From: Pyropia yezoensis
Lineage: Eukaryota > Rhodophyta > Bangiophyceae > Bangiales > Bangiaceae
Reading direction: 5' to 3'
Assembly (NCBI GenBank): GCA_009829735.1
Contig: CM020620.1
Coordinates: forward strand, 3,588,299-3,652,298
Length of the DNA stretch: 64,000 bases
Part shown: in pieces, positions 19,501 to 51,740 of the stretch
Numbering within the stretch: position 1 is the first letter of the stretch
How the letters are laid out: every line of letters starts with the position of its first letter
Position numbers and translations under genes: made by a program
The notes under the pieces: model-generated
What the model was told of the DNA's origin: nothing
The model's database searches: none
Seen by the model: the letters and a program-made list of their open reading frames with translations, nothing else

Positions 19501-19611
19501 TTGGCAGCTGCCTTTGTTGTGAGAGTGTGAGGGTTAGGGCTGTAGTGAAAAGCCACTTTGCGAACCACTTCGACTTGAAGCACTCTCTTGGCACTGTTGC
19601 TCGGCCTTCCC

Positions 19612-22600
19612 TCATGTTGAGGGAGGGCTGTTAGGGTCTATCTCATTCCGGGCACAGTACGCCCGGACCTTCTCAGCGGGAAGGTCCTCCACATACTCCC
19701 ACGTATCATCCTTGGCTTTGTAGCCAAACCAACGCACCCTCAACATGAGGCGGTCAGTGTCCTCATCCCAGCCGTGGTCGATGAACTTACCGAGCACGTA
19801 CTCCTGCGGGCCCTGTTTGGCCGCAGGCAGTGAGGGGAGGCGCCACGCTTCCAACGCACGCGCTCAAGCTGGGTCGCCTGCAGGCGGTGGTGCAACTTTG
19901 ACCACGTCCTGTCCGTTCACTGTGCGGACCCCATCGTCACCTTCGATGGTGAAGCGCCGCCCATCAGTACGAAGGACCTGGTACGGTCCCTTCGTCTGGA
20001 ATACCAACTTACCCCCAGTTGGGGTGTGTGAGTGGACCAATACCCAGTCACCCTGCTCGGGGACATGCTTGGCGCTGCGCACCTTTTTGTCAAAGGTACG
20101 CTTGTAGCGCTTTTGTGCTTTGCCCATCTCAGCCCTGACTTTAGGGATGAGGTTTTCAAGCCTAGTAGCGAACTCCGCCTTCCTCTCAGTAGGAGTAGGC
20201 GTCCTGCCACCATCCTCCCTAGTTGGGAGCGGCCGCCGCACGGCAATAGACCGCACGCGACGGGGGGTCACAAAAGCGAGGGGTACTTCCCCGGTAGATG
20301 AGTGAACCTGCGAATTGTAGGCAGTGGTAAGGATAGAAATATATTGGTCCCACGTCTTCACGTGCTCACTCACATAGTGGCGCAGCTGCCTAACAATAGT
20401 TTTGTTGAAGCGCTCCACCTGCCCATTAGTTTGTGGGTGGTAGGGGGTGGCATAGTTTGCCTTAACCCCCAACATATCCAGCACTCCCTGAAACAGTACG
20501 GACGCAAATTGCGGTCCATTGTCCGATAGTGTACTATCCGGAATGCCATACGCGGCAACCCAGTGATCTGGGAAGGCTGACACGACCGACATGGCCGTGA
20601 TCTCTGCCAGTGGGATCGCTCGCGTAAGTTTCGTGAAGCGGTGACAGATAACCAGGAGGTACTGGTTGCCCTCCTCGGTCACTGGCAGTGGCCCAAGGAT
20701 GTCCATCGCCAACGCGGCGAAGGGCTCCTTAGCCGGGAACAATAGCATAGCCGTACTAGGCCGCCGTTCCATCAGACGATTCTGTGCACAACTTGTGCAG
20801 GCAGCCACCCAACTGTAGATGTCCACCACCATGGACGGCCAGTAGTACCTGGTCCTCAGGGTCTGGTACAGTTTACTAGACCCCAGGTGTCCACCCGTGG
20901 GAGCGTTGTGCTCCCTCTCAAGGATACTGTCCTTGAGGGATGCGGGGATGACAAGTTGTTCGGTCCCCTGGAATACCCCCCTCCTCATGAGGAGGCCATC
21001 GTCTCCCAGGAAGAAGCGCGTCTCAACCACCGTATCCAGTATATCCCTCTGCGACTTGCAGAAGGGATCCTCGGCCTGGGCCTTCACCACCTCGTCCAGG
21101 GACAGGGGCGAGTACTTCTTGTTTCCTGGCGCCTCGGGGTTCAACGCCTGACCCGAGCGCGTGACTACCCCTACGATGGAGATGTCCTCATCGACTGGGT
21201 TAGTTTCCAGCCCCTCGGTAGGTACCCGAGAGAAGCCGTCGGCAAGGGCATGTTGCCTGCCAGGTCGGTACTCAATGTCAAAGTTGAAGGGTGCCAGTCG
21301 CACCCTCCACCGGTTGAGACGAGTGTTCGTACAGTCCGTCTTAAAGATGAACTGCAACGCGCGGTGGTCACAGCGGATGAGGAACTTCTCACCCTCCAGG
21401 TAGTGACGAAGTGACGTCACCGCCCACACCACTGCGAGTCCTTCCAACTCGGTGACTCCGTAGTTCTTCTCGGCCGAGTTCAGCCCCTTGCTGAAGTATC
21501 CCACCGGCAAGTACTCCTTGTCCGGCTGCTGCTGAAGCAACACACAACCAAGTTGGTCGTAGCTAGCGTCCACATCCAGGATGAAGTGGCCTCCCAACCT
21601 GGGAATAGCCAGGATAGGGGGCTTCAGCAGAAGGTCCCGAAGAGTCTCAAAGGATTCCTGCTCCACCCGACTTGGGGGAGGCAGGTTCTTCGGTAGCGTT
21701 GAGCTCACTAACTCATTCAACGGCTTCGCCACCTTGGCGAAGCCCTTGGTGAAACGTCGGTACACGTTACACATCCCGAGGAAGCTTCTCATCTGGGTCT
21801 GGGTCCGGGGGTACTAAGCCTTACGGATGGCCCTCAAGTTTTTCTCGTTGACACTGAGACACCCCGGACGGACAACATGTCCCAAGTACTCCACCTCTTG
21901 AGTGAAGAGGTGGCACTTACTCGCCTTTAGTGACACACCGGCGTCAGCAAGTAGCTTGAACACCTGGCCAAGATGGCCAATGTGTTCTTCCGGACTTCGG
22001 GAGAACACAATGATATCGTCTAGGTACACGAGACAGATCTGCCGCCGTACTCCGGCCAGAATCATGTCCATAGCGCGCTGGAAAGTTGCCGGCGCGTTAC
22101 ACAGACCAAACGGTAGACGCTTGCACTGGTAGATACCACAGTGACAGGTAAAGGTAGTTTTATGCCTGTCCTCCGGGGCAATGGGAATTTGCCAGTACCC
22201 CGCGTTACAGTCCATGGTAGAGAACACGTTCGCCTCCCCCAGGGAGTCCAGACAGTCGTCCATCCTAGGTATGGGATAACTGTCCTTCACCGTGCTCTCG
22301 TTGAGCTTACGGTAGTCGGTACAGAACCGGGGGGTGCCATCAACTTTGGGGACGATAACCACCGGACTCGCCTACTCGGCGTTGCTGGCCTCGATCACAT
22401 CGAGGGCCTCCATGCGAGCAACTTGCTCCTTGACGAGGGCCCTTGAACGGGGTCCTCCCCTATGCGGTTGTTGGCGTATAGGGAGTGCACCGGGCTTCAA
22501 CTCGATCCGGTGTTGGGTAGCTCTCATGAGTCCCAATTGACCATCCCACAACTTGTGATATTGGTCCAAGAGGCGTTCAACTTGAACCCTCAACCTGGGT

Positions 22601-23595
22601 GGGACACCCTCCATGTTCACATGGGGCCGAGGAGAGGTGGCCGACTTGGCTTGATGCTTCTCCTTTCCGGACTTCGGGTCGCTACTTGCGCCCGCGTTGT
22701 GGGTGACCGCTACTACCGGTCCCTCGTGTTGGTCGATATAGCCGAACTTGGCTCCCGACTTGAAGTACTTGGGCGACGAGCTCAGGTTCATAACCTGCAT
22801 CCTCCACGGGACTCCGGCATTGGAGTCCATCGTGCCAAGGGCAACATGCACTTGGTGCTTGCGAGCAAGACGGGGGTGAGGGTGCACCATCCCGTTCTGC
22901 GTATAATGAGTTACAACGTCAACGTGCGCCACCGAGTTGGGGGGCAACGTAACTTTACGGGCTAAACGCAGGGTAGCAGTAAACCCTTCTCTCACAGAGC
23001 AAACAGGCTTCGACTGTGAGACTGTCACAGGAGCCACAGACGTTCTCTTACCAAGGATGGGGATGGTTTCCCCATTCATCAACTTGACCCAATACTCAGT
23101 GCCACAAATCAAAGGCACTTGTGTAACAACATAAGGGGTACCCAAAAGCAGGAGTACCGATATATTCTCAACTACACCATAGGTCACGTCGACCTCATGG
23201 GTCCCCAACCTAGTTGGTAGGGTCGCGGCACCAACGATGGGAAGTACCCCACCATTCATATCGATCAGATGGTCAGCTTTAGACTTCCAGCGTTGGAGCT
23301 TCATCTCCTTTGGTAATAGCGACTTGCGTATCAAGGAGACTCCTGACCCGGTATCAAGTACGATACGGGCACAACAGGCGCGGCCGGGGGCAAGTTACAC
23401 CCGTCCAGCCACCTGGAAGTTCTCACCCGTCAGCACCGCGATGACCCGACGTGGGCTCACGTTCTTGGGGAGTCCTACCCGAGGTGGGCGTACTCCCTTA
23501 GGTCGCAGCAGTATCCGGCACGGTTGGTTCGTCCTCCTGGCCCACTTGGCCGAGGCTGCCGTTGTGAGCTTCGGACGACCAGCTCCAACGGTCAT
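19612..23595 (-). pseudogene. pol: pol of A2, four in-frame stops
   Basis: It aligns with the A1 polyprotein over its whole length in a single frame with no indel that breaks it. It is interrupted by TAA at 23395-23397 (before the protease; CAA in A1), TAG at 22372-22374 (TGG in A1), TAG near 21812-21814 (CAG in A1) and TGA at 19864-19866 (TGG in A1, just before the chromodomain). All four are C-to-T or G-to-A changes relative to A1. DTGSG, YLDD and the integrase D,D,E codons remain; the conserved CDRF motif in integrase reads CHRF. The last stop is shared with A3. Confidence 0.93.
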
Positions 23596-24449
23596 TCGTT
23601 TCCCGCCGACTTGGCGTCCGAATCTGAGGACGAAGGGGAAGACGACGAGTCCGAGGACGACGTGTCCGCCCCCTCCGCCGAGGGTGTGGCGACCGCCACC
23701 ACCGGTCGAGACCCACCCTCGCGGCGTGAACGTACTTCGTTCGTAGCCGACTTCTTACTCGCATTCCTAACAAGTTGTTGGATGCGTTTACTCAACTTGG
23801 GGCAATCATATGCCCAGTGTCCATCGGAGTTGCAGTTCCAACACCGATTATCACTTCCCGGAGGAATCTTCCTAACTGGAGAAGACGAAGAGATACCCTG
23901 GGAAGCTCCCACGGCAGCTACCACCCTCTCCTTCCGGATTCGGCGTGCCTCTCTAAACGCTCTGGCATGGCGCGCCTCCTCCCGTTCCTTGGCCAACTCG
24001 GCCTGACGCTCCTGGCGTTGTTCCTCTCACAACTTGCGGTAGGCCTCGCCTCTGCGGTAGGCGAACCTAGCCAACTCGGCCAGGGTCGCCCCGGCAGTGT
24101 TATGCTCCCGGGTCTTCATCCGGACTGACCAATGGAGTCCCTCCACAAACCGACTCTTCACCACAGCTTGTGGATGAAGAAACCCACAAAGATTGTTGAG
24201 CTTACGGACTCGCTCCGCAAAGGACAACTCGTCCTCCGCCTCTTCCTGATGGGCTTGCGTAAACTCCTCGACTTGAGAAGCCAACGCCGCTTCATCATTC
24301 ATGGCCCTCAACAACCAGTTGACGAGCTCCAAATAGGACGTCACCTCCCCAGCGCCTCCACTTGAGGAGCTGGGCATGACGGACATAAGTTCTGTCCGCA
24401 GGTCTCCCTTCGTAAAACTCCTGTAGCATGTAAAAAGCCATGCCTTCAC
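23592..24449 (-). pseudogene. gag: gag 3' part of A2, one stop
   Basis: Second gag frame with the capsid C-terminal part, zinc knuckle CWNCNSDGHWAYDC and acidic tail. A TGA at 24027-24029 replaces CGG of A1 after RKL. The terminal ATGA overlap with pol is retained. The frame relation to the upstream gag part is the same as in A1. Confidence 0.85.
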
Positions 24450-25539
24450 TTATGGCATTGTCGTCACAGGCTTTTGTGAAACGACGTAGGAACTCAAAGA
24501 CACGAAGGGGGGGAGTTCCATCCCACTCCGCTTTGTGCCCAAAAGAGTAAAGTGCATTCTTCTTGGCGCGGCCCATGGCTCGGGCCTGGTCAGGACCATA
24601 CGCCACCGACTTGTTGTGGAGGGCGTAGGTCTCAAAGTCAAAGATCCGCTGGTAGATCGGGTTGGCTACCTGGACCTTGGGCGGCACCTCACGTTGAGGG
24701 AACAGCCGCTGTGGCACTGGGGTAAGTTCACCCTCAGTGTCCATAGTCTGGCGCGGCGCGCTTGGTGTAGCCGCCGGCGTTGCCGGGGGGATCTCCCCCA
24801 TAAAGGGCGTATGCCCCACCGAGTATGGTGTGGCTCCCTCGTTGGGAGTCACAGGTGTCGCCCCCAGTTCGGGGCGACCCGAGATAGGCGTGAGGAGGGA
24901 TTCCCCCTGCGCCTGCGGGCTCGAAAGCCCCAATCCGGTCTGGAAATTAAGCCCATCTGGCAAACTCGCCACAATCTGATTCAGAATAGTATTCGTCATC
25001 GTGACCACCAGGTCCGGCAAAGTCTGCCGCAACACATCGGTCGCCTCCCGATGGACAGTTTCCGCGAGGAGTGGATTGACGACTCCAGTTGAGTCTCGGT
25101 CCGCCTCCGGGAGTCCACCTGAGGGGTAACCACGTTCCTCAGGGGTCTCAACCGGGGGCATGGGCGCGAGCCCATCGCCGACCAACGGAGGTCCACCGTC
25201 CTCCGAAAGCCTAGTTGGCGACGGCTCCAAGCCAAAGTTGGCTCCAACCCGAGTGGAACCCGCGAGGACAGTCCTCACCCCTTGGGACGTTCCCGTTGAG
25301 TATACCACACGGTGGCCAGACTTCGGCCCACCCACATCAGAAGTGTCACCCGAGTGAACTCCCGACTGAGTCGGGGTGGCCTGTTGCCCGCCCGCAATTC
25401 CAGTCCTGCTGGCTTGAGGGACCTCTAGTCCCTCTGCGACCCCAGGTAAACCCACCTGTGTCTCACCAGTATTCAAAGGCACTGAAGCACGTGCGTCACC
25501 CGTGTACTCCCCGGACGACGGGGGGTCGGAGCTAGCCAT
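24295..25539 (-). CDS. gag: gag 5' part of A2
   Basis: ATG at 25539 (MASSDPP). A Gly/Pro/Thr-rich N-terminal region is followed by the capsid-like start ending FYEG, after which the frame leaves gag and stops at 24295. The frame-change site GAAGGGAGACC is at 24401-24411. No other break. Confidence 0.8.
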   Translation of the reverse strand: MASSDPPSSGEYTGDARASVPLNTGETQVGLPGVAEGLEVPQASRTGIAGGQQATPTQSGVHSGDTSDVGGPKSGHRVVYSTGTSQGVRTVLAGSTRVGANFGLEPSPTRLSEDGGPPLVGDGLAPMPPVETPEERGYPSGGLPEADRDSTGVVNPLLAETVHREATDVLRQTLPDLVVTMTNTILNQIVASLPDGLNFQTGLGLSSPQAQGESLLTPISGRPELGATPVTPNEGATPYSVGHTPFMGEIPPATPAATPSAPRQTMDTEGELTPVPQRLFPQREVPPKVQVANPIYQRIFDFETYALHNKSVAYGPDQARAMGRAKKNALYSFGHKAEWDGTPPLRVFEFLRRFTKACDDNAISEGMAFYMLQEFYEGRPADRTYVRHAQLLKWRRWGGDVLFGARQLVVEGHE

Positions 25540-25639
25540 GCTGGCTGACGATCCAGATGACACGGTCAAAGTCCACCGTTCCTCTGAGACAGAGGGCCCC
25601 CTACACCCGGGTGCACCCGGAGGTAAAGTTTACCTCTGT

Positions 25640-25656
25640 CCCCTGCTGCTCCACCA
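25640..25656 (-). other. Primer-binding site of A2
   Basis: TGGTGGAGCAGCAGGGG on the minus strand, two bases from the 5' LTR, identical to A1, A3 and B. Confidence 0.8.
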
Positions 25657-25658
25657 AA

Positions 25659-26127
25659 TGTGGCAAAAACCACTTGCACACACGGCACCCAAGTTGGGGC
25701 GGTGTACAAGGGCTGCCTCCCGTGTCGGGGGAACCGGAAGAAGGGCAAGTGGCACACACTCTGTCCCTGTTGTGGGGCAAACCCCCCACTGACAAACAAG
25801 AGGATGGTGTGTGGTCCAACAGTTTCTTGGTCGGGACGGGGACGCAGGGCCAAGCCCCGCTGTCCCTCCCCTTATCCCCCCAGGGTCCCCTCAGAATCTC
25901 GCCACTCCGAATCTCCCACCCCCGCACCTGCCCACCGGGCCACACGAAAATTCAAGACGATAAATGCAGAAAACCCTCAAATCCAAGTTGGATTTACTAC
26001 TAAGCTAACTATCCCAAACTTAGGGAATACGGACCCAAATGCAGGGGGAGGAACGGATCAGGCTAGTGGTCTGCCGCCCCTTGCATGGCACGTGTTGCCC
26101 CCGTACCTCGGGGTCAATACTGCCACA
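25659..26127 (-). repeat. 5' LTR of A2
   Basis: 469 bp with TGTGGC...GCCACA ends. It shares AAGGGCAAGTGGC and ACTCCG variants with the A3 5' LTR rather than with its own partner at 16750-17218. Confidence 0.92.
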
Positions 26128-33994: not shown

Positions 33995-34402
33995 TGTGGT
34001 ATAAAACTCGATCCTCTCAGACACGTGTCAATATCCCTCGGGGGAAAGGGACAGGTAACGCAGAAAGGGGAACTACGAGAATGGTATGCCTGTTGCCTCA
34101 CGTGCCTGCTCGCAGGGCAAACAGATACGCACGGTAGTGCACACGGGGAAGAGGAAAGCAAACGCGCAGTTGTCTTTTTCCCTGAGGGCGCGGGCCGAGG
34201 GCGCCTCGCTGTCCCTCTTAACGTGCATCTGGGGGAACCCCGGCACGTTGGCCCGGTAGCCCCCCCATAACCCCGAGTGGCCCCGACCCGAGTCTAACCT
34301 CGTCAGGTCGGGGGCCACTATCACTACTAATTCTATTCCCACTCACTAATCTCACACTCAAATTCTCTCAAATCAAGTCCCTCACAAATATGCAAAAACA
34401 CA
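33995..34402 (-). repeat. 3' LTR of B (inner end tentative)
   Basis: The outer end TGTGGTATAAAAC at 33995 is fixed by identity with 43077. The inner end is placed at ACACA (34402), followed by TCAGAAATCCCTCTCTC, the complement of a purine-rich tract; other CA positions nearby are possible. A TATAAA near the outer edge points on the plus strand towards the antisense ORF. Confidence 0.6.
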
Positions 34403-34749: not shown

Positions 34750-36876
34750 ATGTCCAGTTCCGAGATCCAAGCTGGGCCCGTGGTTCCGGCGGCGAGTGTT
34801 GCGGAGGAGAACTCGGGTCGTCGTGCCCCTCTCCTGCCTCCGGTTCCTCGGATGTCGGTGCCGGCGCCGGTCGCCACGGCGGGGACGGATCGAGTTCCCC
34901 CGGCTTCCGCGATGCACCCGGTCGAGGCCCCCCCGGAGGGTCTCCCGGAGATGCTTCTTGGGCAGGACCCTCTGGCGGCCCGGCGTTACTCCACGGTGGT
35001 CGGCAACGCCGGCGCGGCCCAGTGCCAGCAGGATTGCAAGGACCTCTGGCGCAAGGAACTCCAGCGCGGGGTCTTGACCGAGATGGACAAGGCACGTCTT
35101 CACACGGCGGACCAGATGCGCCTGGCACAAGACCGCTCCCAGAGCTTCTCGGGTTCCTCTTGGGTTGCTCGTCTGGAGGATCTCCCCTTCGCGCTGGTAC
35201 TGGATCTACCCTTGACCGAGCGTCGCGTGTCCGCGTCCGTTCTCCGGTGGCCGGAGGAGGAAGGGTACGTCCACCGGGCGCTCAAGGTCTGGGACGAGGC
35301 GCTCAAGGGGTCGGGAAGCTTGAACTGCGACCCCCGTCCGAGCATGGTCGCTCTGGAGCCGCCTTTCTTGACCCGGAAATACTCCAAGTTGTCGCCGGCA
35401 CGGGAGCAGGGTGAGCGACGCGGGCGTCAGCGTGACTTCCTTGTGAGCTGCAACCACCAGGAGTTCTGGAAGCTGGACAAGGCTAACCGGGCGGCATACT
35501 ACCCCAAGGTCATCCCGCAGCAGCAGGAAGTCGAGATCCCGGTCGGGTTTGCTCCTTCCAGCATCCCTTGCACCTGGTACTTCTTGGACGCCTTGACTCA
35601 GGCGTCGATCAAGGGCTTCTTCCACTCAATCCCGTACATGATGTACACGTCCGAGATGACAGTCTTGGCGGCCAACCACTGGCTTCACGAGGTCTTGGTG
35701 TCCAACCGGCTTTGGTTTCTCCCCGACCTCCTGATGGTCTGGATTGTCGACAAGTTGACCGTCGACTTCCTGTGCAGCGAGGACGAGGAGTACAAGGAGC
35801 TCTTCCAGGCGATGATCGACTTCCGGCGTCTGGTACCGGTGCATGACCGGAACTTCTTGAACGCGATTGCCGACCAGAACCGCCCGCGTCGGGATGGCTT
35901 CGGTTGGGCGCAGGTGGTCTACCAGTCTTCTCCGGCCAAGGTGCAGCTGGCGACGCCGCTTCCGGCGTGGCCGCAGCTAGGTAGCTTTCCTGCTCCGGCC
36001 GCCCTTGATCTTCTGCCAGTTGGGCCGCCGGTGCAGGAATCGGGATGGGCCGCGGCGGTCGGTCGGGCGTCTGCGGCGGCTCCGCTTCCTCTTGTTGCCC
36101 CTGTCGCCCCGGTCGCCTCGGTCGCCTCGCCTGAACCGTCACCGGCGCGTCCGCGCCCTGTTCCGGCTGTGCCGGTACTTCAAGCTCCTCCGGCACCGCG
36201 CTTGTCTGCGGCGAGTCTGGGAGTGGCCGTGCGGTCGCCGACTACTCCGGCCGCTCTACCCCGGACGCCTTCTTCCAACGCCGGCGGCGCTGTGCCTCCG
36301 CTGGAGTTGGGTACTCCGGTCTCGGGGGCCGTTGTGGATCGTCCGGTAGTGTCATCCTCGGGCCGGTTCGAGATTCCGGCGCCGACTCTGCGCCTTACCC
36401 GCTTCCGGGTGCCTGACTGGTACCTGAACCAAGGTGGTCCAACATGCGACCAGTACGACGTCGGTATGATTGAAGACCAGCTGGGTCGTCTTCCGGTGCA
36501 GGTTGAAGGCGTCGGGTCTTCTCTGGTGCTGGGCACTTACGCCAGTGTCTTGAACGACGTGGTCGACCGGGTGTTTGCTTGCGCGGACAGTGGTCAGATG
36601 TCGAACAACCCGGTGGTTGGCGAACTTCTGGCGACTTTGACGCGGCATGGCTTGGCCCAGCAGTGGTCAGAGACCTTCACGGGCTTCCAGCGGCGCCGAC
36701 GGACATATCTGGATGAGCGGGAGCCACCGGCAACTACTGGTACTACTCCGATGGCGTCATACCGGGATGCGCCGCGTCCACCGCACTACGTCATCCCGTC
36801 TTCCTCCGGTTCCCGTCGTACCGCGGAGGCAACGCCGGAGGACACTCCCGCGGCTCAGCGTCCGCGCCGGGAGTAG
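34750..36876 (+). CDS. Antisense accessory ORF (aORF) of lineage B
   Basis: A 708-residue protein on the strand opposite gag-pol, ATG at 34750 (MSSSEIQAGP), intact. The N-terminal 70 residues are Pro/Ala-rich. A folded-looking region spans about 75-380 and carries YYPK at 250-253, VEIPVGF at 261-267, WLHEV at 311-315 and LWFLPDLL at 321-328. In the family A protein the spacing from YYPK to VE(V/I)PxGF is also 11 residues, and WLLEV and LWHLP follow in the same order, so I infer common descent. A Pro/Ala/Val-rich linker follows, then a second helical region (about 550-640) and a basic end. It lacks the strong Arg/Ser tail of A. It converges with pol across 145 bp. Function unknown. Confidence 0.8.
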   Translation: MSSSEIQAGPVVPAASVAEENSGRRAPLLPPVPRMSVPAPVATAGTDRVPPASAMHPVEAPPEGLPEMLLGQDPLAARRYSTVVGNAGAAQCQQDCKDLWRKELQRGVLTEMDKARLHTADQMRLAQDRSQSFSGSSWVARLEDLPFALVLDLPLTERRVSASVLRWPEEEGYVHRALKVWDEALKGSGSLNCDPRPSMVALEPPFLTRKYSKLSPAREQGERRGRQRDFLVSCNHQEFWKLDKANRAAYYPKVIPQQQEVEIPVGFAPSSIPCTWYFLDALTQASIKGFFHSIPYMMYTSEMTVLAANHWLHEVLVSNRLWFLPDLLMVWIVDKLTVDFLCSEDEEYKELFQAMIDFRRLVPVHDRNFLNAIADQNRPRRDGFGWAQVVYQSSPAKVQLATPLPAWPQLGSFPAPAALDLLPVGPPVQESGWAAAVGRASAAAPLPLVAPVAPVASVASPEPSPARPRPVPAVPVLQAPPAPRLSAASLGVAVRSPTTPAALPRTPSSNAGGAVPPLELGTPVSGAVVDRPVVSSSGRFEIPAPTLRLTRFRVPDWYLNQGGPTCDQYDVGMIEDQLGRLPVQVEGVGSSLVLGTYASVLNDVVDRVFACADSGQMSNNPVVGELLATLTRHGLAQQWSETFTGFQRRRRTYLDEREPPATTGTTPMASYRDAPRPPHYVIPSSSGSRRTAEATPEDTPAAQRPRRE

Positions 36877-37021: not shown

Positions 37022-40000
37022 TCAATCCTCTTGTTCCGCATCCGTTGCGGGTGAGCTCGTCTCGTCCCGAGGGTCTTGGTTGGCCCCGTCCTCTTGGTCC
37101 TCCTCCGTGTCCGACTCCAGAATCTTGCCGGCTCTGGCCACGGGAGTGCCCTCAATCCCGTTCCGTCGCGTGTAGGCACAGACGTCCGCGATGGGTAGCC
37201 GGTTTGAGGGTTCCCATGTATCATCTGCCGGGTTGAAACCGAACCAGCGTACTCGCAGGTACAGGCGTCCATCTCTCCAGGCATGGTCGACAAACTTGAC
37301 GTAGACAAATTCCCGACCTTCTTCTTGGGATAGCCAGGGTATCGCAGTCCGCTTACGCCGGGTCAAGTCCCGTTGGCTTGGCGGTGGAGCTCGGGTGACA
37401 TGGTCGCTGCTCACCCGGTACGGAGAGCCATCCACGTCTAGAAGGAAGGTCCAGCCATCCGTATTGAGAATCTCATAAGGTCCATCCGTCCTAGAGTCCA
37501 GCTTCCCCCGGGTCTTGCTATGGTTGTCCACAAAAACCCAGTCGCCACCACCCAGTTCCTTGTTCTTTTCCCGGACACCCTTGTCATAGTCCCGCTTGTA
37601 TCGCTCCTGGGTCTTTGAAATTGACTCCTTGACTCTTGGGAGCAGGAGCTTTAGTTGTTCCAGGAACTCATCCTTTGCCTTGGGACCTGACTTCAGTGCA
37701 GGCTGGAGACCATCCGGTATTCTTTCCAGGGAGAAGTTGGTCAGCCGCCTCGGGGTGACAAAGTCGAGTGGAGCGACTCCCGTTGTCCGGTGAACTCGGG
37801 AGTTGTAGGCTAGAGTGAGGACAGCCAGGAGCTCGTCCCAGTCTTCTTGGTGCTCCTCCACGTAGTGCCGTAGCATGTCCACTAGGGTCCGGTTGAATCG
37901 TTCCACCTGGCCGTTCGTTTGAGGGTGGTACGTCGTGGTGTACAAGTTCTTGATGCCCATCAGGTCACAGACTCCTTGGAAGAACAGGGATGCAAACTGG
38001 GGACCGTTGTCGGTTAAGACGGAGTCTGGAGGGCCGTAGGCAGCTATCCAGTACTCGCAGAAGGCCGACGTGACATCCAGAGCCGTGATGGTTCTCAACG
38101 GGATTGCTCGAGTGAACTTGGAGAACCGGTCACAAATGATGAGTAGGTATATGTTGCCACTGGAGGTCTCAGGTAGGGGCCCCAGGATGTCCATGCTTAA
38201 GCTTGCAAAGGGCTCCGCCGCAGGGAATAGGCGTAGCTTAGAAGTCTTCTTCCTCTGGGACAACCGGTTCCTTGCACAAGAAACACAAGCCTCCAGGCAC
38301 TTATGGACGTCACTGGCCATGGTTTCCCAGTAATAGTGTCGTCTCATGGAAGCATACATCCGATTGATACCAGGATGTCCGGCCTGGGGAGACGAGTGCT
38401 CCAGGCGTAGGATGTCAGTCCGTAGGCTCCGGGGTACGTAGACTTGAGTTGCCCCATCGAAGGGTGACACCCGTACTAGGAGTCCGTCTGTAGACTCGGA
38501 GAAGCGACTGTTCCGGTTCAGGTCCATTTGGTGGCGAAGCTCCAAGCATTGAGGGTCCGTCAATTGTGCCTCCAGCATCCGGTGAATGGTTACCGGTTGA
38601 TGAGCTTCAGGTGTCTCGTACAGGGGAGCGTGCCAGCCACGTCCGACATTCGGGAGGATAAAGCAAGGTATTTCCTCCGGGATAGGACCGGTATCGGCTG
38701 CAGGAGTCTCCAGCCTGGACATGGTGTCGGCGCAGTGGTGCTCCCTCCCTGCTCTGGTGCACACCTTGTACTTGAACTCCGAAAGGCGTAGGCGCCACCG
38801 GGCGACCCTTCCTTGACTGCTGTCCATGCATAGCAGCCACCTTAGACTGGCGTGGTCCGTCCGGATGAGGAACTCTTGTCCTTCAAGATATGGACGTAAC
38901 AGGAAGCAAGCCCAGACGACCGCCAAGCACTCGCGCTCGGTCGTGGAATAGTTCTTCTCGGCTGGAGTCAAGACGCGACTGTAGTAGCCTATCGGGAGGA
39001 AGTGCCAATCAGGTTGCTGCTGGAGTAGTGAGCACCCCACCTGGACGCCACAGGCGTCAGTCTCCAGAACAAACTGACCCTCCCGCTTGGGTAACGCCAG
39101 TACTGGAGTGGTGGTCAGGCGCTTCTTGAGCTCTTCGAAGGCTGCTGTCTGCTTCTCGTCGAACACCGGGAGTTGTGCTGGAAGCTTCTTGCTAGTAAGC
39201 TTGGTCAAGGGCCGGGCAATCAGAGCGTAGTCTCGTACGAACCGGCGGTAGACGTTGCACATACCCAGGAAGCTCTTGAGTTCCGTCTGGGTTTTAGGTT
39301 GCCGTGCATGCCGGAGGGCCTTGATGTTCTTCTCATTGACTCGGAGCTCCCCCGGACTCAGCACGTGCCCCAGGTACTCCACCTCAGTCTCAAACAGGTG
39401 GCACTTCTCGGCCTTGAGGGTAACTCCAGCCTTGGACAGGAGGGCCAGGACTTCTCGAAGGTGCTCCAGGTGTTCCGCTGGGGTCTTGGAGAAAACGATG
39501 ATGTCGTCCAGGTAGACCAAACATGTTCTCCACCTTAGCCCCGACAGGATGATGTCGATGGCTCTCTGGAAGGTTGCCGGGGCATTAGTGAGACCAAAAG
39601 GGAGACGCTTGCACCGGAACAGTCCCATGTGGCACGTGAAGGTGGTCTTGTCCTTGTCCTCGTCAGCCAGAGGGATCTGCCAGTAACCGGCATTACAATC
39701 CAGCGTCGAGAAGAGGGTGGCATCACCAAGAAAGTCGAGGCAATCATCCATCCGGGGTATCGGGTATACATCCTTGACTGTCATCTCGTTCAGGCGTCTG
39801 TAGTCAACGCAGAAACGGAAGTGACCGCCAGGTTTCGGGACGACTACCACCGGGAAAGCCCACTCGCCATCAGACGGCTCGATAACATCCATCTTGAGCA
39901 TCTTGTTAACCTGCTTCTCAATCTCATCCCGGCGATGAGGTCCAGCCCGGTATGGGTGCATGTGCACTGGTTTGGCATCTGGCTTGAGTTGAATCCGGTG

Positions 40001-40981
40001 TAGGGTGGCGTCCATCTTGCCCAGCTCTCCGGACCACAGGTGCCGATGTTCCTGGAGAAGCTTCTCCAGTGCCTCCTTCAAGTCGAGAGGGACGTTTTCT
40101 TGGTTGACCTTCGGCATCCCGGGCGGTGCTTGTTCGGGCTTCGGAGTAATACGGCCAGCCTGCTCTTGTTCCGGAGATACGTCTAAGGCCGTCAAGTTGG
40201 ATGCCAGCTCTTGTTGCAGGTTGAAGAGGTCTTCCTTGCTCATAGCGCGGGCGGACCCCCGGTAAGGCTCTGCTGTACCAACTCGAGTGCCCTTGGCGAG
40301 GGTTATTGGCTTCCGGCTCACGTTGACGATCAGCACCGAGAACGGGGTGTGCCTCTCCACCTTCTTGTGGTGTCCGTGGGCTAGGTATAATCGGTGTTTC
40401 GCCAGAAATTCCTTGCGTCCGTAGATCAGGCATTGACCTGCAGTCCGGGTCGTGACTTGAACCTTGGTCTCCGAGCGAGGAGGTAGGAGCACCGGTTTGA
40501 TGAGGGTCAAGATTGAGGGTGGGATGCGTTCCTTCTGGTTCTTGGCCACACGAACCTTGGTGTCCAGGTGCTCCAGCACTGGTGACACAAACCCATGGTT
40601 GAACTGCACCTTTCCTTCTCCGGGTAGGATGCTCTTGACATGCTGCTTCTGGAAGTCCCAGCCTAGGATGAGGGGGACTGATAAGGTCTTGACTACTAGA
40701 AAGGGAAAAAGCATTGGTTCATTGTTGACATAGATGGCGACGGGAAGACGGCCAAGCGGTCGTAGGGTTTGACCTGATGCGTCTACAATCCGGGTCTTGG
40801 TAGGCGCTCTCCAGGCATGTCGACGCCAGCCCGGAGGTAACAGGTTCTCAGTGATGACGCTTGGTCCGGCTCCCGTGTCGACCACCGGCGTAACAGCTTG
40901 GGGGAGGCTATCCCCCACACGCATACGAGCATTAATCTTGAGGTTTTCCTTACGCAGGACGAGCAAGGTCCCCTTGAACAA
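37022..40981 (-). CDS. pol: Pol polyprotein of B (intact)
   Basis: Protease DTGAG near the N-terminus, RT box YLDDIIVFS, RNase H with ETDAC and TEREC, integrase zinc site (HSSPQAGHPG...CVSCARNR), catalytic D in SMDILGPL, D in LTDNGPQFAS and E in NGQVERFN, a DGPYEIL motif, and a chromodomain (VRWFGFNPADDTWEP) followed by an acidic tail. The frame has no ATG near the N-terminus and stays open upstream to about 41108, i.e. up to the gag stop at 41110-41112. It lies in the -1 frame relative to gag, so it is probably made by -1 frameshifting. I could not pick out a classical slippery heptamer with confidence. Confidence 0.93.
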   Translation of the reverse strand: MFKGTLLVLRKENLKINARMRVGDSLPQAVTPVVDTGAGPSVITENLLPPGWRRHAWRAPTKTRIVDASGQTLRPLGRLPVAIYVNNEPMLFPFLVVKTLSVPLILGWDFQKQHVKSILPGEGKVQFNHGFVSPVLEHLDTKVRVAKNQKERIPPSILTLIKPVLLPPRSETKVQVTTRTAGQCLIYGRKEFLAKHRLYLAHGHHKKVERHTPFSVLIVNVSRKPITLAKGTRVGTAEPYRGSARAMSKEDLFNLQQELASNLTALDVSPEQEQAGRITPKPEQAPPGMPKVNQENVPLDLKEALEKLLQEHRHLWSGELGKMDATLHRIQLKPDAKPVHMHPYRAGPHRRDEIEKQVNKMLKMDVIEPSDGEWAFPVVVVPKPGGHFRFCVDYRRLNEMTVKDVYPIPRMDDCLDFLGDATLFSTLDCNAGYWQIPLADEDKDKTTFTCHMGLFRCKRLPFGLTNAPATFQRAIDIILSGLRWRTCLVYLDDIIVFSKTPAEHLEHLREVLALLSKAGVTLKAEKCHLFETEVEYLGHVLSPGELRVNEKNIKALRHARQPKTQTELKSFLGMCNVYRRFVRDYALIARPLTKLTSKKLPAQLPVFDEKQTAAFEELKKRLTTTPVLALPKREGQFVLETDACGVQVGCSLLQQQPDWHFLPIGYYSRVLTPAEKNYSTTERECLAVVWACFLLRPYLEGQEFLIRTDHASLRWLLCMDSSQGRVARWRLRLSEFKYKVCTRAGREHHCADTMSRLETPAADTGPIPEEIPCFILPNVGRGWHAPLYETPEAHQPVTIHRMLEAQLTDPQCLELRHQMDLNRNSRFSESTDGLLVRVSPFDGATQVYVPRSLRTDILRLEHSSPQAGHPGINRMYASMRRHYYWETMASDVHKCLEACVSCARNRLSQRKKTSKLRLFPAAEPFASLSMDILGPLPETSSGNIYLLIICDRFSKFTRAIPLRTITALDVTSAFCEYWIAAYGPPDSVLTDNGPQFASLFFQGVCDLMGIKNLYTTTYHPQTNGQVERFNRTLVDMLRHYVEEHQEDWDELLAVLTLAYNSRVHRTTGVAPLDFVTPRRLTNFSLERIPDGLQPALKSGPKAKDEFLEQLKLLLPRVKESISKTQERYKRDYDKGVREKNKELGGGDWVFVDNHSKTRGKLDSRTDGPYEILNTDGWTFLLDVDGSPYRVSSDHVTRAPPPSQRDLTRRKRTAIPWLSQEEGREFVYVKFVDHAWRDGRLYLRVRWFGFNPADDTWEPSNRLPIADVCAYTRRNGIEGTPVARAGKILESDTEEDQEDGANQDPRDETSSPATDAEQED

Positions 40982-41109: not shown

Positions 41110-42868
41110 CTACTCGCTTCCCGGCTCCGAGGAGTCCTTAGAGGTTTCGGTCTCCAGGTCAAAGTCCGTAGGAGCTTCCCTTGCCAGAGCCTCCGTGATG
41201 CTCTGTAAGGTTGCCACTCGGATGGCATGTACCTGTGCCTTGTCCATCTTGGAGGGTGCCCGCCGGTCAGCCCAGTTGACCGCCTTTGCAAACACCAGTC
41301 CTTGACGCTTGAGTTTCTCCTGGAGATCCTCGGGAATGGTCGGGCACTGGTAGGACATATGATCCTCCTTCTGGCACAGCCAGCAAGACCGGAACCGCTG
41401 GTTCCTGATCTGCTTGGGGGCGACCAGGGAAAGTTGCTCCTTAGAAACGAAGCCGCCCCACTTGTCCCTTGACTCCATGGGTGATGCCTCGCCAACTGCG
41501 AGTACCGGTACAGGGTTATCACCTCCCTTATACTTGTCGGGTCCGGGACGAACTCGCGACAACGGCTTGGGGGTTGATACCATAGGAGCCTGGAGGGCCT
41601 TGGCTTGCCGGTGCTTGCCCTGGGTATAGGCCATCAACTGCTGGAAGGTATGTTCTTGATGTTCCTGGTTGTAGTTCTCCGCATCCACTTGAAGATATTC
41701 AGGAAGCCCCTCCGAGAAGATCATCTTGAGCCTGTCCTCAGGGTAAACGTTGCCACAAGCATCGCTCATCTCCCGGACACGACGGGCGAACGCCTCTGGA
41801 GTCTCTTGTCTCTCCATGGTTGCCCGGTTCAGCCTACCGACTGCCTTACGCAGGGAGTCCGCGTCTGCGTAGTTGGACAGGAGCCAGTTGACCGCCTCCG
41901 GATAACTCGCGACGGTACGTCCAACAATGTGCCCGGCAGAGTCTGGTAGAACCTGTGCAAACCGCTGTTCCGCTTCTCCGGTCATGAAGTTAACCAGGAG
42001 ATAGAGAGCCTTGCCCTCGGACACATCGTTGTCATTGCATGCCTTGACAAACCGGCGCAGGAAGGCAAAGATAAGCGCCGGTCTCTTCCCGGAAAACTTA
42101 GGATGCCCCCAAAGCTCGGCTGCATTCGCCGGTTCAGGGATGCCATCTTCTTGGCCATCTTCCGGGTGTAACCTTGGTCTTGGTTCTCCAGCCGGTATTA
42201 CCCCAATACGTGACCTTGTTCAGGGTGGCATCTCCCACTTGGTGGGCAGGGAAGTCGAACTCGACTAGCCTGCGCCGGGTAGGACCGGGAGATGCATCCC
42301 AGTCATATCCCTCCTCAGAGCTGGAGGAACTGGTCTCGCTGGTGCTAGAGCGACGGCGACGACGCCGACGCCTACGGCTGCTCCGGTCACCGGTCTTGGA
42401 GCTCCCCGCCCCATAGGACGCAAGGGGAGGAAAAGCTTGGCCGGTCCCAGGGAGTCGAAGTCTCAGGAAGACCCGTAGAACCAGTCATAGCGGTGCCTCT
42501 GGCACTGCCAGTGCCCACAGGAAGAGGTGTATACACCCAGCTGCCATGTGTGGGTCCAGGAGTAAACACACCAGGGGCTATCCCTGGAGGTTGAGGAGTA
42601 GAACCGACAGGAGGGAGACGTCTGCTGCGAGCGGACTCAAACGCCGTTGACCCCGGGGTGGCTCCCACAGGAGGAACAGCCGGAGGAACGGGAGCAGGCG
42701 GTACTTGGCCGCCTAGACTCCAGTCCACTACCGGATGTCACGCCCAGGTCTGCTTCACCCGTAGGGAGAACGCCGGGTTGGGCACCGTCCCCCGCGGTGA
42801 CCAGGGATGCGTCAAGGGACGCGGGGTCTACCCCTTCGGGCACCGTCGTGCCAGGGAGGGGTAGCCAT
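41110..42868 (-). pseudogene. gag: gag of B, N-terminal part frame-broken
   Basis: The intact part (42024-41110) holds the capsid domain (SEGKALYLLVNFMTGEAEQR, then VNWLLSNYADADSLRKAVGR) and one zinc knuckle CWLCQKEDHMSYQC. Upstream, the ATG at 42868 (MATPPWHDG) is followed by Pro/Gly/Thr-rich sequence like the A gag N-terminus, but it is spread over three frames, with another frame carrying SSKTGDRSSRRRRR and EGYDWDASPGPTRRR. Several small indels are therefore needed to explain it. Confidence 0.8.
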
Positions 42869-43055: not shown

Positions 43056-43072
43056 CCCCTGCTGCTCCACCA
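43056..43072 (-). other. Primer-binding site of B
   Basis: TGGTGGAGCAGCAGGGG on the minus strand, four bases from the LTR start at 43077. Identical to family A although the LTRs themselves are unrelated in sequence. Confidence 0.75.
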
Positions 43073-43076
43073 AATA

Positions 43077-43139
43077 TGTGGTATATAAAACTCGATCCTC
43101 TCAGACACGTGTCAATATCCTCGGGGGAAAGGGACAGGT
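43077..43139 (-). repeat. 5' LTR of B, visible 63 bp
   Basis: It begins TGTGGTATATAAAACTCGATCC and matches 33995 onwards until the N run starts at 43140. It has TATATAAA where the 3' LTR has TATAAA. Confidence 0.85.
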
Positions 43140-43639
43140 NNNNNNNNNNNNNNNNNNNNNNNNNNNNNNNNNNNNNNNNNNNNNNNNNNNNNNNNNNNNN
43201 NNNNNNNNNNNNNNNNNNNNNNNNNNNNNNNNNNNNNNNNNNNNNNNNNNNNNNNNNNNNNNNNNNNNNNNNNNNNNNNNNNNNNNNNNNNNNNNNNNNN
43301 NNNNNNNNNNNNNNNNNNNNNNNNNNNNNNNNNNNNNNNNNNNNNNNNNNNNNNNNNNNNNNNNNNNNNNNNNNNNNNNNNNNNNNNNNNNNNNNNNNNN
43401 NNNNNNNNNNNNNNNNNNNNNNNNNNNNNNNNNNNNNNNNNNNNNNNNNNNNNNNNNNNNNNNNNNNNNNNNNNNNNNNNNNNNNNNNNNNNNNNNNNNN
43501 NNNNNNNNNNNNNNNNNNNNNNNNNNNNNNNNNNNNNNNNNNNNNNNNNNNNNNNNNNNNNNNNNNNNNNNNNNNNNNNNNNNNNNNNNNNNNNNNNNNN
43601 NNNNNNNNNNNNNNNNNNNNNNNNNNNNNNNNNNNNNNN
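43140..43639. other. Assembly gap (500 N)
   Basis: Exactly 500 N, probably a placeholder. It hides the rest of the B 5' LTR and the right-hand target-site duplication. Confidence 0.99.
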
Positions 43640-45118: not shown

Positions 45119-45583
45119 TGTGGCAGTATTGACCCCCAGGTAGTGGGGCAACACGTGCCATGCAAGGGGCGGCAGGCCACTAGCCTGATCCGTTCCTCCC
45201 CTGCATTTGGGTCCGTATTCCCTAAGCTTGGGATAGTTAGCTTAGTAGTAAATCCAACTTGGATTTGAGGGTTTTTGCATTTATCGTCTTGAATTTTCGT
45301 GTGGCCCGGTGGGCAGGTGCGGGGGTGGGAGATTCGGAGTGGCGAGATTCTGAGGGGACCCTGGGGGGATAAGGGGAGGGACAGGGGGCTTGGCCCTCGT
45401 CCCCGTCCCGACCAAGAAACTGTTGGACCACACACCATCCTCTTGTTTGTCAGTGGGGGGTTTGCCCCACAACAGGGACAGAGTGTGTGCCACTTGCCCT
45501 TCTTCCGGTTCTCCCGACACGGGAGGCAGCCCTTGTACACCGCCCCAACTTGGGTGCCGTGTGTGCGAGTGGTTTTTGCCACA
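45119..45583 (+). repeat. 5' LTR of A3
   Basis: 465 bp with TGTGGC...GCCACA ends and a few small indels relative to the 469-bp form. Confidence 0.92.
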
Positions 45584-45585
45584 TT

Positions 45586-45602
45586 TGGTGGAGCAGCAGG
45601 GG
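45586..45602 (+). other. Primer-binding site of A3
   Basis: TGGTGGAGCAGCAGGGG two bases after the 5' LTR, identical to the other elements. Confidence 0.8.
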
Positions 45603-45702
45603 ACAGAGGTAAACTTTACCTCCGGGTGCACCCGGGTGTAGGGGGCCCTCTGTCTCAGAGAAACGGTGGTCTTGGACCGTGTCATACGGATCGTCAGCCA
45701 AC

Positions 45703-47649
45703 ATGGCTAGCTCGGACCCCCCGTCGTCCGGGGTGTACACGGGTGACGCACGTACTTCAGTGCCTTTGAATACTGGTGAGACACAGGTGGGTTTACCTGG
45801 GGTCGCAGAGGGACTGGAGGTCCCTCAAGCCTGCAGGACTGGAAGTGCGGGCGGGCAACAGGCCACCCCGACTCAGTCGGGAGTTCACTCGGGTGACACT
45901 TCTGATGTGGGTGGGCCGAAGTCTGGCCACCGTGTGGTATACTCAACGGGGAACGTCCCAAGGGGTGAGGACTGTCCCCGCGGGTTCCACTCGGGTTGGA
46001 GCCAACTTTGGCTTGGAGCCATCGCCAACTAGGCTTCGGAGGACGGTGGACCTCCGTTGGTCGGCGATGGGCTCGCGCCCATGCCCCCGGTTGAGACCCC
46101 TGAGGAACGTGGTTACCCCTCAGGTGGACTCCGGAGGCGGACCGAGACTCAACTGGAGTCGTCAATCCACTCCTCGCGGAAAACTGTCCGTCGGGAGGCG
46201 ACCGATGTGTTGCGGCAGACTTTGCCGGACCTGGTGGTCACGATGACGAATACTATTCTGAATCAGATTGTGGCGAGTTTGCCAGATGGGCTTAATTTCC
46301 AGACCGGATTGGGGCTTTCGAGCCCACAGGCGCAGGGGATCTCTCCTGACGCCTATTCCGGGTCGCCCCGAACAGGGGGGGACCCCTGTGACTCCCAACG
46401 TGGGAGCCGCACCATTCTCGGTGGGGCGTACGCCCTTCACGGGGAGTTTCCCTCGGAAACGCCGGCGGCTACACCAAGCTCGCCGTACCAGACTACAGGC
46501 ACTGAGGGTGGACTTACCCCAGTGCCACAGCGGCTGTTCCCTCAACGTGAGGTGCCGCCCAAGATCCAGGTAGCCAACCCGGTCTACCAGCGGATCTTTG
46601 ACTGTGAGACCTACGCCCTCCACAACAAGTCGGTGGCGTATGGTCCTGACCAGGCCCGAGCCATGGGCCGCGCAAGAAGAATGCACTTCATTCTTTGGAG
46701 CACAAAGCGGAGTGGGATGGAACTCCCCTCCTCCGTGTCTTTGAGTTCCTACGTCGTTTCACAAAAGCCTGTGACGACAATGCCATAAGTGAAGGCATGG
46801 CTTTTTACATGCTACAGGAGTTTTACGAAGGGCGACCTACGGACAGAACTTATGTCCGTCATGCCCAGCTCCTCAAGTGGAGGCGCTGGGGAGGTGACGT
46901 CCCTATTTGGAGCTCGTCAACTGGTTGTTGAGGGCCATGGTTGATGAAGCGGCGTTGGGCTTCTCAAGTCGAGGAGTTTACGCAAGCCCATCAGGAAGAG
47001 GCGGAGGACGAGTTGTCCTTTGCGGAGCGAGTCCGTAAGCTCAACAATCTTTGTGGGGTTTCTTCATCCACAAGCTGTGGTGAAGAGTCGGTTTGTGGAG
47101 GGACTCCACTGGTCAGTCCGGATGGAGACCCGGGAGCATAACACTGCCCGGGCGACCCTGGCCGAGTTGGCTAGGTTCGCCTACCGCAGAGGTGAGGCCT
47201 ACCGCAAGTTGCGGGAGGAACAACACCAGGAGCGTCAGGCCGAGTTGGCCAAGGAACGTGCGGGGGCGCGCCAGGCGAGAGAGTTGAGAGAGGCACGCCG
47301 AATCCGGAAGGAGAGGGTGGTAGCTGCCGTGGGAGCTTCCCAGGGTATCTCTTCATCTTCCCCAGTTGGGAAGACCCCTCCGGGAACTGACAATCGGTGT
47401 TGGAACTGCAACTCCGATGGACACTGGGCATATGATTGCCCCAAGTTGAGTAAACGCATCCAACAGCTTGTTAGGAATGCGAGTAAGATGTCGGCTACGA
47501 ACGAAGTACGTTCACGCCGCGAGGGTGGGTCTCGACCGGTCGTCGCGGTCGCCACACCCTCGGCGGAGGAGGCGGACACGTCGTCCTCGGACTCGTCGTC
47601 TTCCTCCCCGCCCTCAGATTCGGACGCCAAGTCGGCGGGAAACGAATGA
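45703..47649 (+). pseudogene. gag: gag of A3, multiple frameshifts
   Basis: ATG at 45703 (MASSDPP) is retained. The frame is then lost and regained several times between about 46000 and 47100 by single-base and small indels relative to A1. The frame-change site common to all copies (GAAGGGCGACC here) is at 46827-46837. The zinc knuckle CWNCNSDGHWAYDC and acidic tail are intact in the last frame, which ends with the ATGA overlap into pol. Confidence 0.9.
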
Positions 47650-50600
47650 CCGTTGGAGCTGGTCGTCCGAAGCTCACAACGGCAGCCTCGGCCAAGCGGG
47701 CCAAGAGGACGAACCAACCGTGCCGGATACTGCGGCGACCTAAGGGAGTCCGCCCACCTCGGGTAGGACTCCCCAAGAACGTAAACCCACGTCGGGTCAT
47801 CGCGGTGCTGACGGGTGAGAACTTCCAGGTGGCTGGACGGGTGCAACTTGCCCCCGGCCGTGCATGCTGTACCCGTATCGTACTTGATACCGGGTCAGGA
47901 GCCTCCTTGATACGCAAGTCGCTATTACCAAAGGAGGTGAAGCTCCAACACTTGAAGTCTAAGGCTGACCATATGATTGACATCAATGGTGGGGTACTTC
48001 CCATCGTTGGTGCCGTGACCCTACGAACTAGGTTGGGGACCCATGGGGTCGACGTGACCTATGGTGTAGTTGAGAATATATCGGTACCCCTGCTTTTGGG
48101 GACCCCTTATGTTGTTACACAAGTGCCTTTGATTTTTTGCCCGGAGTACTGGGTCAAGTTGATGAATGGGGAGACTATCCCCATCCTTGGTAAGGGAAAG
48201 TCTGTGGCTCCTGTGACAGTCTCACAGTCGAAGCCTGATTGCTCTGTGAGGGAAGGGTTTACTGCTACCCTGCGTTTAGCCCGTAAAGTCACGTTGCCCC
48301 CCAACTCGGTGGCGCACGTTGACGTTGTAACTGATTATTCGGGGAACGGGTTGGTGCACCCTTACCCCCGTCTTGCTCGCAAGCTCCAAGTGCATGTTGC
48401 CCTTGGCACGATGGACTCCAAAGCCGGAGTCCCGTGGAGGATCCAGGTGATGATCCTGAGCTCGTCGCCCAAGGACTTCAAGTCGGGAGCCAAGTTCGGC
48501 TATATCGACCAACACGAGGGACCGGTAGTAGCGGTTACCCTCAACGCGGGCGCAAGTAGCGACCCGAAGTCCGGAAAGGAGAAGCATCAAGCCAAGTAGG
48601 CCGCCTCTCCTCGGCCCCATGTGAACATGGAGGGTGTCCCACCCAGGTTGAGGGTTCAAGTTGAACGCCTCTTGGACCAATATCACAAGTTGTGGGATGG
48701 TCAATTGGGACTCATGAGAGCTACCCAACACCGGATCGAGTTGAATCCCGGTGCACCCCCTATACGCCAACAACCGTATAGGGGAGGACCTCGTTCAAGG
48801 GCCCTCGTTAAGGAGCAAGTTGCTCGCATGGAGGCCCTCGACGTGATCGAGGCCAGCAACGCCGAGTGGGCGAGTCCGGTGGTTATCGTCATCAAAGTTG
48901 ATGGGACCCCCCGGTTTTGTATCGACTACCGTAAGCTCAACGAGAGCACGGTGAAGGACAGTTATCCCCTACCTAGGATGGATGACTGTCTGGACTCTCT
49001 GGGGGAGGCGAACGTGTTCTCTACCCTGGACTGTAACGCGGGGTACTGGCAAATTCCCATTGCCCCGGAGGACAGGCATAAAACTACCTTTACCTGTCAC
49101 TGTGGTACCTACCAGTGCAAGCGCCTACCGTTTGGTATGTGTAACGCGCCGGCAACTTTCCAGCGCGCTATGGACATGATTCTGGCCGGAGTACGGCGGC
49201 AGATCTGTGTTGTGTACCTAGACGATATTATTGTGTTCTCCCGAAGTCCGGAGGAACACATTGGCCATCTTGGCCAGGTGTTCAAGCTACTTGCTGACGC
49301 CGGTGTGTCACTAAATGCGAGTAAGTGCCACCTCTTCACTCAAGAGGTGGAGTACTTGGGACATGTTGTCCGTCCAGGGCGTCTCAGTGTTAACGAGAAG
49401 AACTTGGGGGCCATTCGTAAGGCTCAGTACCCCCGGACCCAGACCCAGATGAGGAGCTTCCTCGGGATGTGTAACGTGTACCGACGTTTCACCAAGGGCT
49501 TCGCCAAGGTGGCGAAGCCGTTGAATGAGTTAGTGAGCTCAACGCTACCGAAGAACCTGCCTCCCCCAAGTCGGGTGGAGCAGGAATCCTTTGAGACTCT
49601 TCGGGACCTTCTGCTGAAGCCCCCTATCCTGGCTATTCCCAGGTTGGGAGGCCACTTCATCCTGGATGTGGACACTAGCTACGACCAACTTGGTTGTGTG
49701 TTGCTTCAGCAGCAGCCGGACAAGGAGTACTTGCCGGTGGGATACTTCAGCAAGGGGCTGAACTCGGCCGAGAACAACTACGGAGTCACCGAGTTGGAAG
49801 GACTCGCAGTGGTGTGGGCGGTGACGTCACTTCGTCACTACCTGGAGGGTGAGAAGTTGCTCATCCGCTGTGACCACCGCGCGTTGCAGTTCATCTTCAA
49901 GACGGACTGTACGAGCACTCGTTTCAATCGGTGGAGGGTGCGACTGGCACCCTTCAACTTTGACATTGAGTACCGACCTGGCAGGCAACATGCCCTTGCC
50001 GACGGCCTCTCTCGGGTACCCACCGAGGGGCTGGACACTAACCCAGTCGATGAGGACATCCCCATCGTGGGGGTAGTCACGCGCTCGGGTCAGGCGTTGA
50101 ACCCCGAGGCGCCAGGGAACAAGAAGTACTTGCCCCTGTCCCTGGACGAGGTGGTGAAGGCCCAGGCCGAGGATCCATTCCGCAAGTCGCAGAGGGATAC
50201 ACTGGATACAGTGGCGGAGACGCGGTTCTTCTTGGGAGACGATGCCCTCCTCATGAGGAGGGGGGTATTCCATGGGACCGAACAACTTGTCGTCCCCGCA
50301 TCCCTCAAGGGCAGTATCCTTGAGAGGGAGCACAACGCTCCCACGGGTGGGCACCTGGGGTCTAGTAAACTGTACCAGACCCTGAGGACCAGGTACTACT
50401 GGCCGTCCATGGTGGTGGACATCTACAGTTGGGTGGCTGCCTGCACAAGTTGTGCACAGAACCGTCTGATGGAACGGCGGCCTAGTACGGCTATGCTATT
50501 GTTCCCGGCCAAGGAGCCCTTCGCCGCGTTGGCGATGGACATCCTTGGGCCACTGCCCGTGACCGGGGAGGGCAACCAGTACCTCCTTGTCATCTGTGAC

Positions 50601-51629: not shown

Positions 51630-51740
51630 GGGAGGGCCGAGCAACAGTGCCACGAGAGTGCTTCAAGTCGAAGTGGTTCGCAGAGTGGCTTTTAACTACA
51701 GCCCTAACCCTCACACTCTCACAACAAAGGCAGCTGCCAA

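Follow-up and report, generated by a model that had tools for sequence, protein, structure and literature searches.

The stretch of Pyropia yezoensis DNA analysed here (64,000 nt, hereafter the window) holds four copies of a Ty3-type retrotransposon family, A, and a single element of a second family, B (Table 1). The genome of this alga is described as having 65% GC, with LTR retrotransposons as its main repeats (PMC7423979). Both families carry, on the strand opposite gag-pol and between pol and the 3′ LTR, an intact ORF of 647 (A) or 708 (B) codons, in agreement with the original prediction of a protein of about 650–710 residues at this place. Each of the four A antisense ORFs in the window has its terminal stop only, and in the first copy (A1) 111 nt separates the end of the pol ORF from that of the antisense ORF. 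Copies A1 and A4 extend past the edges of the window; self-comparison of the window matched the LTR pair of A2 at 97.9% over 472 positions and that of A3 at 96.3% over 465. The A pol contains reverse transcriptase (RT), RNase H, H2C2 and integrase domains (Pfam), and a C-terminal chromodomain match (PF00385) is weak in both families, at 21.1 bits in A and 20.1 bits in B against a curated cut-off of 25.1. Ty3 elements with chromodomains that fall outside the chromoviruses have been described from a brown alga (PMC12477816).

Table 1 Features of the Ty3-type elements in the window (window coordinates)
Feature	Position	Strand	Remarks
A1 antisense ORF	231–2174	+	647 aa from ATG
A1 pol	2286–6269	-	convergent with antisense ORF
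A2 leader, 3′ LTR to antisense ATG	17219–17556	+	candidate promoter or leader region
A2 antisense ORF	17557–19500	+	element 16750–26127
B 3′ LTR, outer end	33995–34056	-	part common with 5′ side; boundary by eye
B antisense ORF	34750–36876	+	708 aa from ATG; convergent with B pol
B pol	37022–40981	-	RT, RNase H, H2C2, integrase; sub-threshold matches to protease and, at the C-terminus, chromodomain
B gag region	41110–42126	-	zinc knuckle below cut-off
B 5′ LTR, inner end	43077–43139	-	remainder in assembly gap (N at 43140–43639, 500 N); boundary by eye
A3 antisense ORF	51741–53684	-	element 45119–54490, opposite orientation
Lineage C remnant	55871–60320	-	pol 3′ part 58371–60320 and element 3′ end; interrupted by A4 insertion
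A4 antisense ORF	61129–63072	+	LTR 60322–60790

Several further features of the window were recorded. The gag of A and B apparently occupies two overlapping frames (6440–8237, 23766–25527 and 41113–42126), which suggests a frameshift, an intron or decay. Beside their 5′ LTRs, which differ from each other, A2 (25641–25656) and B (43057–43072) have an identical putative primer binding site (TGGTGGAGCAGCAGGG, element strand). A DDE_Tnp_4 transposase match (Pfam, 8.5e-13) lies at 15235–15837 on the plus strand. Rfam and tRNA searches of the window returned no relative.

We compared the antisense proteins of A and B directly. BLASTP aligned 166 residues at 23% identity (E 2e-8), and the Smith–Waterman score of the two cores was 98, against a mean of 35.7 (s.d. 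5.2) in 1000 shuffles (Gumbel p 1.2e-7). Replacing B by P0006, a relative from the B clade, gave p 2e-6 with the register unchanged, and profile–profile alignment with hhalign returned a probability of 87.8 (E 3.3e-6). An HMM built from B-type proteins alone placed three of the four A ORFs at E 0.94–4.6 and the fourth was not among the matches listed, so that none was significant. Taken alone, we judge the A–B link from these comparisons to be good but not overwhelming. A third lineage, C, strengthens it. With a profile built from A-type and B-type proteins, C ORFs gave E values between 2.3e-21 and 1.2e-13, and single C proteins matched both the A protein (best 1.9e-11) and the B protein (best 7.8e-14) of the window. 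Because lineage C bridges A and B, it outweighs the failure of the B-only HMM. The predicted kinship of the two proteins is thus present at profile level, and is stronger through C.

The shared motifs on which that prediction had been based were largely found as described. YYPK is followed by VE(V/I)PxGF at a distance of 11 residues, start to start, and LW(H/F)LP aligns between A and B. WL(L/H)EV is doubtful as evidence: BLASTP and MAFFT place it 8 residues out of register, although hhalign pairs it across a gap. YYPK is not retained in C, which has HY-x-RV, but across six proteins drawn from A, B and C there is no variation at Y251, V261, P264 or G266 (numbered as in B). The description of gag, pol and LTRs of the two families as far apart needs softening, as pol is 45% identical over 1291 aligned positions; B gag matches A gag in pieces, at 25% and 46% identity.

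In the window remnant, C pol is 41% identical to that of A and 49% to that of B, and at least 99 scored genome matches (rows) belong to C pol. From these 99 rows we hand-picked 18 C loci (pol-to-3′ regions) to span the identity range. In 10 of these loci the A+B-type profile matched an ORF on the strand opposite to pol. With proteins of all three lineages as tblastn queries, the gene or a clear piece of it was seen in 14 of the 18; two others (L036 and L038) hold a short leader piece only, and two (L043 and L050) hold none at that place. Across all 76 antisense rows and 99 pol rows of C, several of them pieces of one gene, 44 antisense rows lie less than 4 kb from a pol row, and all 44 are convergent with it. 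For A, with 31 of 68 antisense rows and 14 of 73 pol rows entered, all 8 close pairs are convergent and have an identical spacing of 118 nt. For B, convergence was examined in the window element alone, which counts against the reading that we favour below. An ORF with a SAP domain (55311–56120, plus strand; Pfam 3.8e-6, above cut-off) was considered as the antisense gene of C and rejected, as the outer end of C is at 55871 and the SAP part (about 55467–55544) lies outside the element. L042 and L043 hold A-type LTRs, and in L038 there is a solo LTR of A. Elsewhere in the genome, integrase H2C2 matches are numerous within open frames that are about 1186 or 1255 codons long.

Trees of pol (642 columns) and of the antisense protein (311 columns) had the same unrooted topology for six elements, namely A, B and four of C (L039 included; L037 and L052 left out), although three main lineages only are present and the topology between them cannot disagree. 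The pair L041 and L039 has low support in both trees (75 for pol and 48 for the antisense protein). Identities of pol and of the antisense protein are correlated (Mantel r 0.98, 3 of 720 permutations), a value driven largely by C versus the rest. Between lineages, the antisense protein is 20–25% identical and pol 41–51%. From these alignments, the simplest history would be one gain before the split of A, B and C, with faster evolution than pol; transfer between lineages is unnecessary, and an early transfer may have occurred. The original prediction had left it open whether the gene is older than the split or was transferred between lineages, and the same topology and the proportional pol and antisense distances favour the former.

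These results bear on the possibility that the ORF is a host gene, captured and carried by chance. The absence of any Pfam or NCBIfam match would suit such an origin, but the gene is common to three lineages with pols 41–51% identical and with proportional distances, so that capture was already disfavoured; moreover, the gene is under selection, and no host copy was seen among the best-scoring rows inspected. We give this explanation hardly any credence.

We next consider selection. In six pairs of window A copies, dN/dS in the antisense frame was 0.13–0.28, the lowest of the six frames every time, and the differences per pair numbered 23–76 at third positions, 8–22 at first and 8–18 at second. 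The A antisense protein is under purifying selection. The three full A pols of the window gave dN/dS of 0.24–0.38. In the B clade, pooled dN/dS was 0.225 for 11 cores, 10 of them chosen for resemblance to P0006, not for mutual resemblance, and single pairs ranged from 0.07 to 0.83. The A and B loci taken from the genome for dN/dS came from a ranking on how closely their proteins match the query, a choice that biases dN downwards; the window A copies are without this bias. In C, dN/dS of the antisense gene was 0.24–0.40 between subfamilies; it was 0.40–0.77 in three close copies, as if these were decaying, which counts against the favoured reading. The codon substitution patterns that had been proposed as a check thus show constraint on the antisense frame, in window copies for A and in genome copies for B. 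Codon usage of the antisense ORF correlates with that of the pol of its own element (r 0.70 for A and 0.64 for B). Synonymous divergence between A1 and A2 was 0.167 in the antisense ORF (231–2174 and 17557–19500) and 0.072 in pol (2286–6269 and 19612–23595), as if the A copies were mosaic.

Genome copies are mostly intact. Searches covered 107,475,971 bases in 11 contigs, with the best candidates scored, so that the following counts favour intact copies: no internal stop was present in 67 of the 68 best-scoring rows for A, in 61 of 63 for B (identity 98–100%) and in 98 of 110 in the search with P0006. Stops were also absent from 67 of the 73 rows scored for A pol (its last 600 residues), and this measure therefore does not separate the antisense gene from pol. 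In the window, all four A antisense ORFs are intact though two of the three full A pols have extra stops, which supports the favoured reading of a real accessory gene.

A different view of the locus is that the working product is an antisense RNA, acting in cis or in trans to dampen or protect the sense RNA, and that the ORF is incidental. Antisense transcripts of LTR elements can form double-stranded RNA, according to a review of such elements (PMC7264820), and the 111-nt distance between the ORF ends of A1 means that the two transcripts may overlap. The constraint acts on the protein, though, in A, in the B clade and in C; homology is retained across lineages at 20–25% amino-acid identity; and, as described below, some C copies that inserted independently of one another do not have the region. 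We regard an RNA product as very unlikely.

The C copy in the window lacks the antisense core and retains a leader piece only (56835–56975). It shares an internal structure without the core with L036 and L038, each of which has one later insertion. Because their outer flanks differ, each of the three arose by its own insertion of a C form that lacks the antisense core, and this form thus occupies at least three sites. The segment that replaces the core (57144–58069) has no convincing similarity to the antisense protein (best E 0.048), and the pol match of L036 lies within an open frame of 1336 codons. We conclude that the antisense gene is dispensable in cis. That a selected gene has been lost by copies still inserting fits a product acting in trans and is no proof of it; the core-less copies could equally mean that the gene is not needed.

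We searched for domains and relatives of the protein. Pfam at E up to 10, a range in which HMMER filters drop most matches above about 0.1, gave no match in 11 and 10 members of the family, and NCBIfam gave none to the antisense proteins. Among PDB sequences there was none below E 1, and a lone chain at E 1 was taken as chance. No relative was found in viral contigs searched with P0001, B pol, A5 and P0009, or in a collection of genome contigs searched with P0001. The first two protein searches returned one near-identical match each, a poor yield that probably reflects low-complexity words filling the candidate list, and a search with the core alignment returned six matches, four of them new. 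P0005 and P0007 are EukProt entries with about 82% and 73% identity to B. P0006 is 42–43% identical to B and is probably from another species, because the nearest of the 110 scored rows of this genome reached 43%.

AlphaFold models had mean pLDDT of 29.8 (B) and 30.7 (A) and no usable fold. No transmembrane-like segment was found in six proteins, the largest 19-residue hydropathy being 1.54. The A protein has an RS-like stretch, with 11 R/K in one 20-mer; the most basic 20-mers of the B and C proteins have 5–8, so that a strong basic stretch is confined to A, which counts against the favoured reading. These properties also bear on whether the product is a structural protein of the particle, a second capsid-like or Env-like component that acts in the cytoplasm. 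In its favour, the core is predicted to be mostly helical, though at unusable confidence. Env-like genes are in sense orientation and encode transmembrane segments, but the ORF described here is antisense and its product has no transmembrane-like stretch; it lies on the wrong strand to be a product of the gag-pol mRNA, both families already possess gag ORFs, and the lack of a Pfam match extends to gag and env families. A particle protein is accordingly improbable.

Upstream of the ORF, the A2 leader contains two perfect inverted repeats, at -23 to -3 and at -219 to -201 relative to the ATG, where shuffled leaders gave a mean of 0.16 and a maximum of 2 in 100. The ATG-proximal repeat has 10-bp arms and a 1-nt centre (17534–17554), the upstream one, at about -210, has 8-bp arms, and both are present in all four window A copies. 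The leaders of B and L044 have no perfect inverted repeat with arms of at least 7, and those of L042 and L052 have a different inverted repeat near -480. The ATG-proximal palindromes are thus specific to A, and the leader scan revealed no TATA-like motif; both points count against the favoured reading. Outside the leader scan, TATAAAA occurs at 34000–34006 (plus strand), on the antisense strand of the outer end of the B LTR, and is possibly a piece of a promoter.

Antisense ORFs in the interval between pol and the 3′ LTR (aORF-3R) are described, in a review, from flowering plants and fungi, the examples being Grande gene23, RIRE2/Wallabi/Gran3, PvRetro13 and Boty; the same text calls the function of antisense ORFs unknown, and states that the Grande antisense protein is nuclear and has its own promoter (PMC7264820). 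A second paper describes antisense ORFs with the TRP28 domain (PF04195) in Retand, a non-chromovirus lineage that it reports from eudicots and monocots only (PMC11963269). In A, B and C, a long ORF opposite gag-pol likewise occupies the pol–3′ LTR interval, is present in most copies and is conserved like the other element proteins. aORF-3R systems as the review portrays them thus share with these elements where the ORF lies and which way it points, its occurrence in most copies, its conservation as a protein and, for the most part, the lack of a recognised domain. In contrast to the named aORF-3R examples, the host is a red alga, the integrase has a weak chromodomain match and the protein has no library match; unlike Retand TRP28, the 11 and 10 members gave no PF04195 match in the Pfam searches. 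Homology across three lineages and selection at codon level, as shown here, go beyond those examples, with Grande and Boty compared by description only. We conclude that the kind of gene is known, from Grande, RIRE2 and Retand, and that the protein family looks new, the Grande gene23 and Boty proteins again having been compared by description. In the titles and abstract openings of the literature searched, we found no description of an antisense ORF in red-algal Ty3 elements. As far as these searches show, the protein family, the red-algal host, the three-lineage homology and the natural gene-less copies have not been described.

Taking these results together, we favour, at about an even chance, a real ancestral accessory gene of a red-algal Ty3 clade, which would be expressed from an antisense mRNA as a nuclear protein acting in trans on element nucleic acid. 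Most simply, the common ancestor of the three lineages would already have carried the gene, which would then have passed down together with pol. Since it is oriented opposite to gag-pol, a separate antisense transcript is needed for the protein to be made; for this mRNA, which would be opposite in strand to the genomic RNA, the promoter would lie within the 3′ LTR or immediately interior to it. The protein would then enter the nucleus, where it may act on the DNA or RNA of the element itself, in transcription or RNA export, and would do so in trans for copies of its own lineage. By analogy with the Grande antisense protein, a nuclear accessory regulator is the most likely role. A looser analogy is offered by the antisense proteins HBZ and APH-2 of HTLV, named in the Retand paper (PMC11963269), where a separate antisense transcription unit encoding a nuclear regulatory protein corresponds to the mechanism that we infer here.

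The most interesting alternative is that the protein lifts host silencing from copies of its own lineage. VANC proteins of VANDAL DNA transposons have such an anti-silencing effect on their own lineage, and the comparison with them is one of analogy. Many near-identical copies, divergence faster than that of pol (20–25% against 41–51% identity between lineages), the family-specific palindromes of the A leader and the C copies without the gene would all fit a factor of this kind, which we nevertheless consider rather unlikely as the specific function. A broader proposal, that an ancestral trans-acting regulator of a new family serves the copies of its lineage, gene-less ones included, for instance in RNA export or anti-silencing, and diverges faster than pol, as in a conflict with the host, is tentative, and we think it somewhat sooner wrong than right. 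For the nuclear accessory gene that we favour, the benefit is probably that it helps the elements to spread.

Antisense accessory genes of LTR retrotransposons have so far been described mainly from flowering plants. The red-algal case brings three lineages, many near-identical copies, codon-level evidence and natural gene-less copies. A family without a library match may pass for host genes, and EukProt already lists two of its relatives under the names of gene models. The host is a farmed and sequenced seaweed, in which the questions of protein versus RNA and of cis versus trans become testable by comparison and simple expression work.
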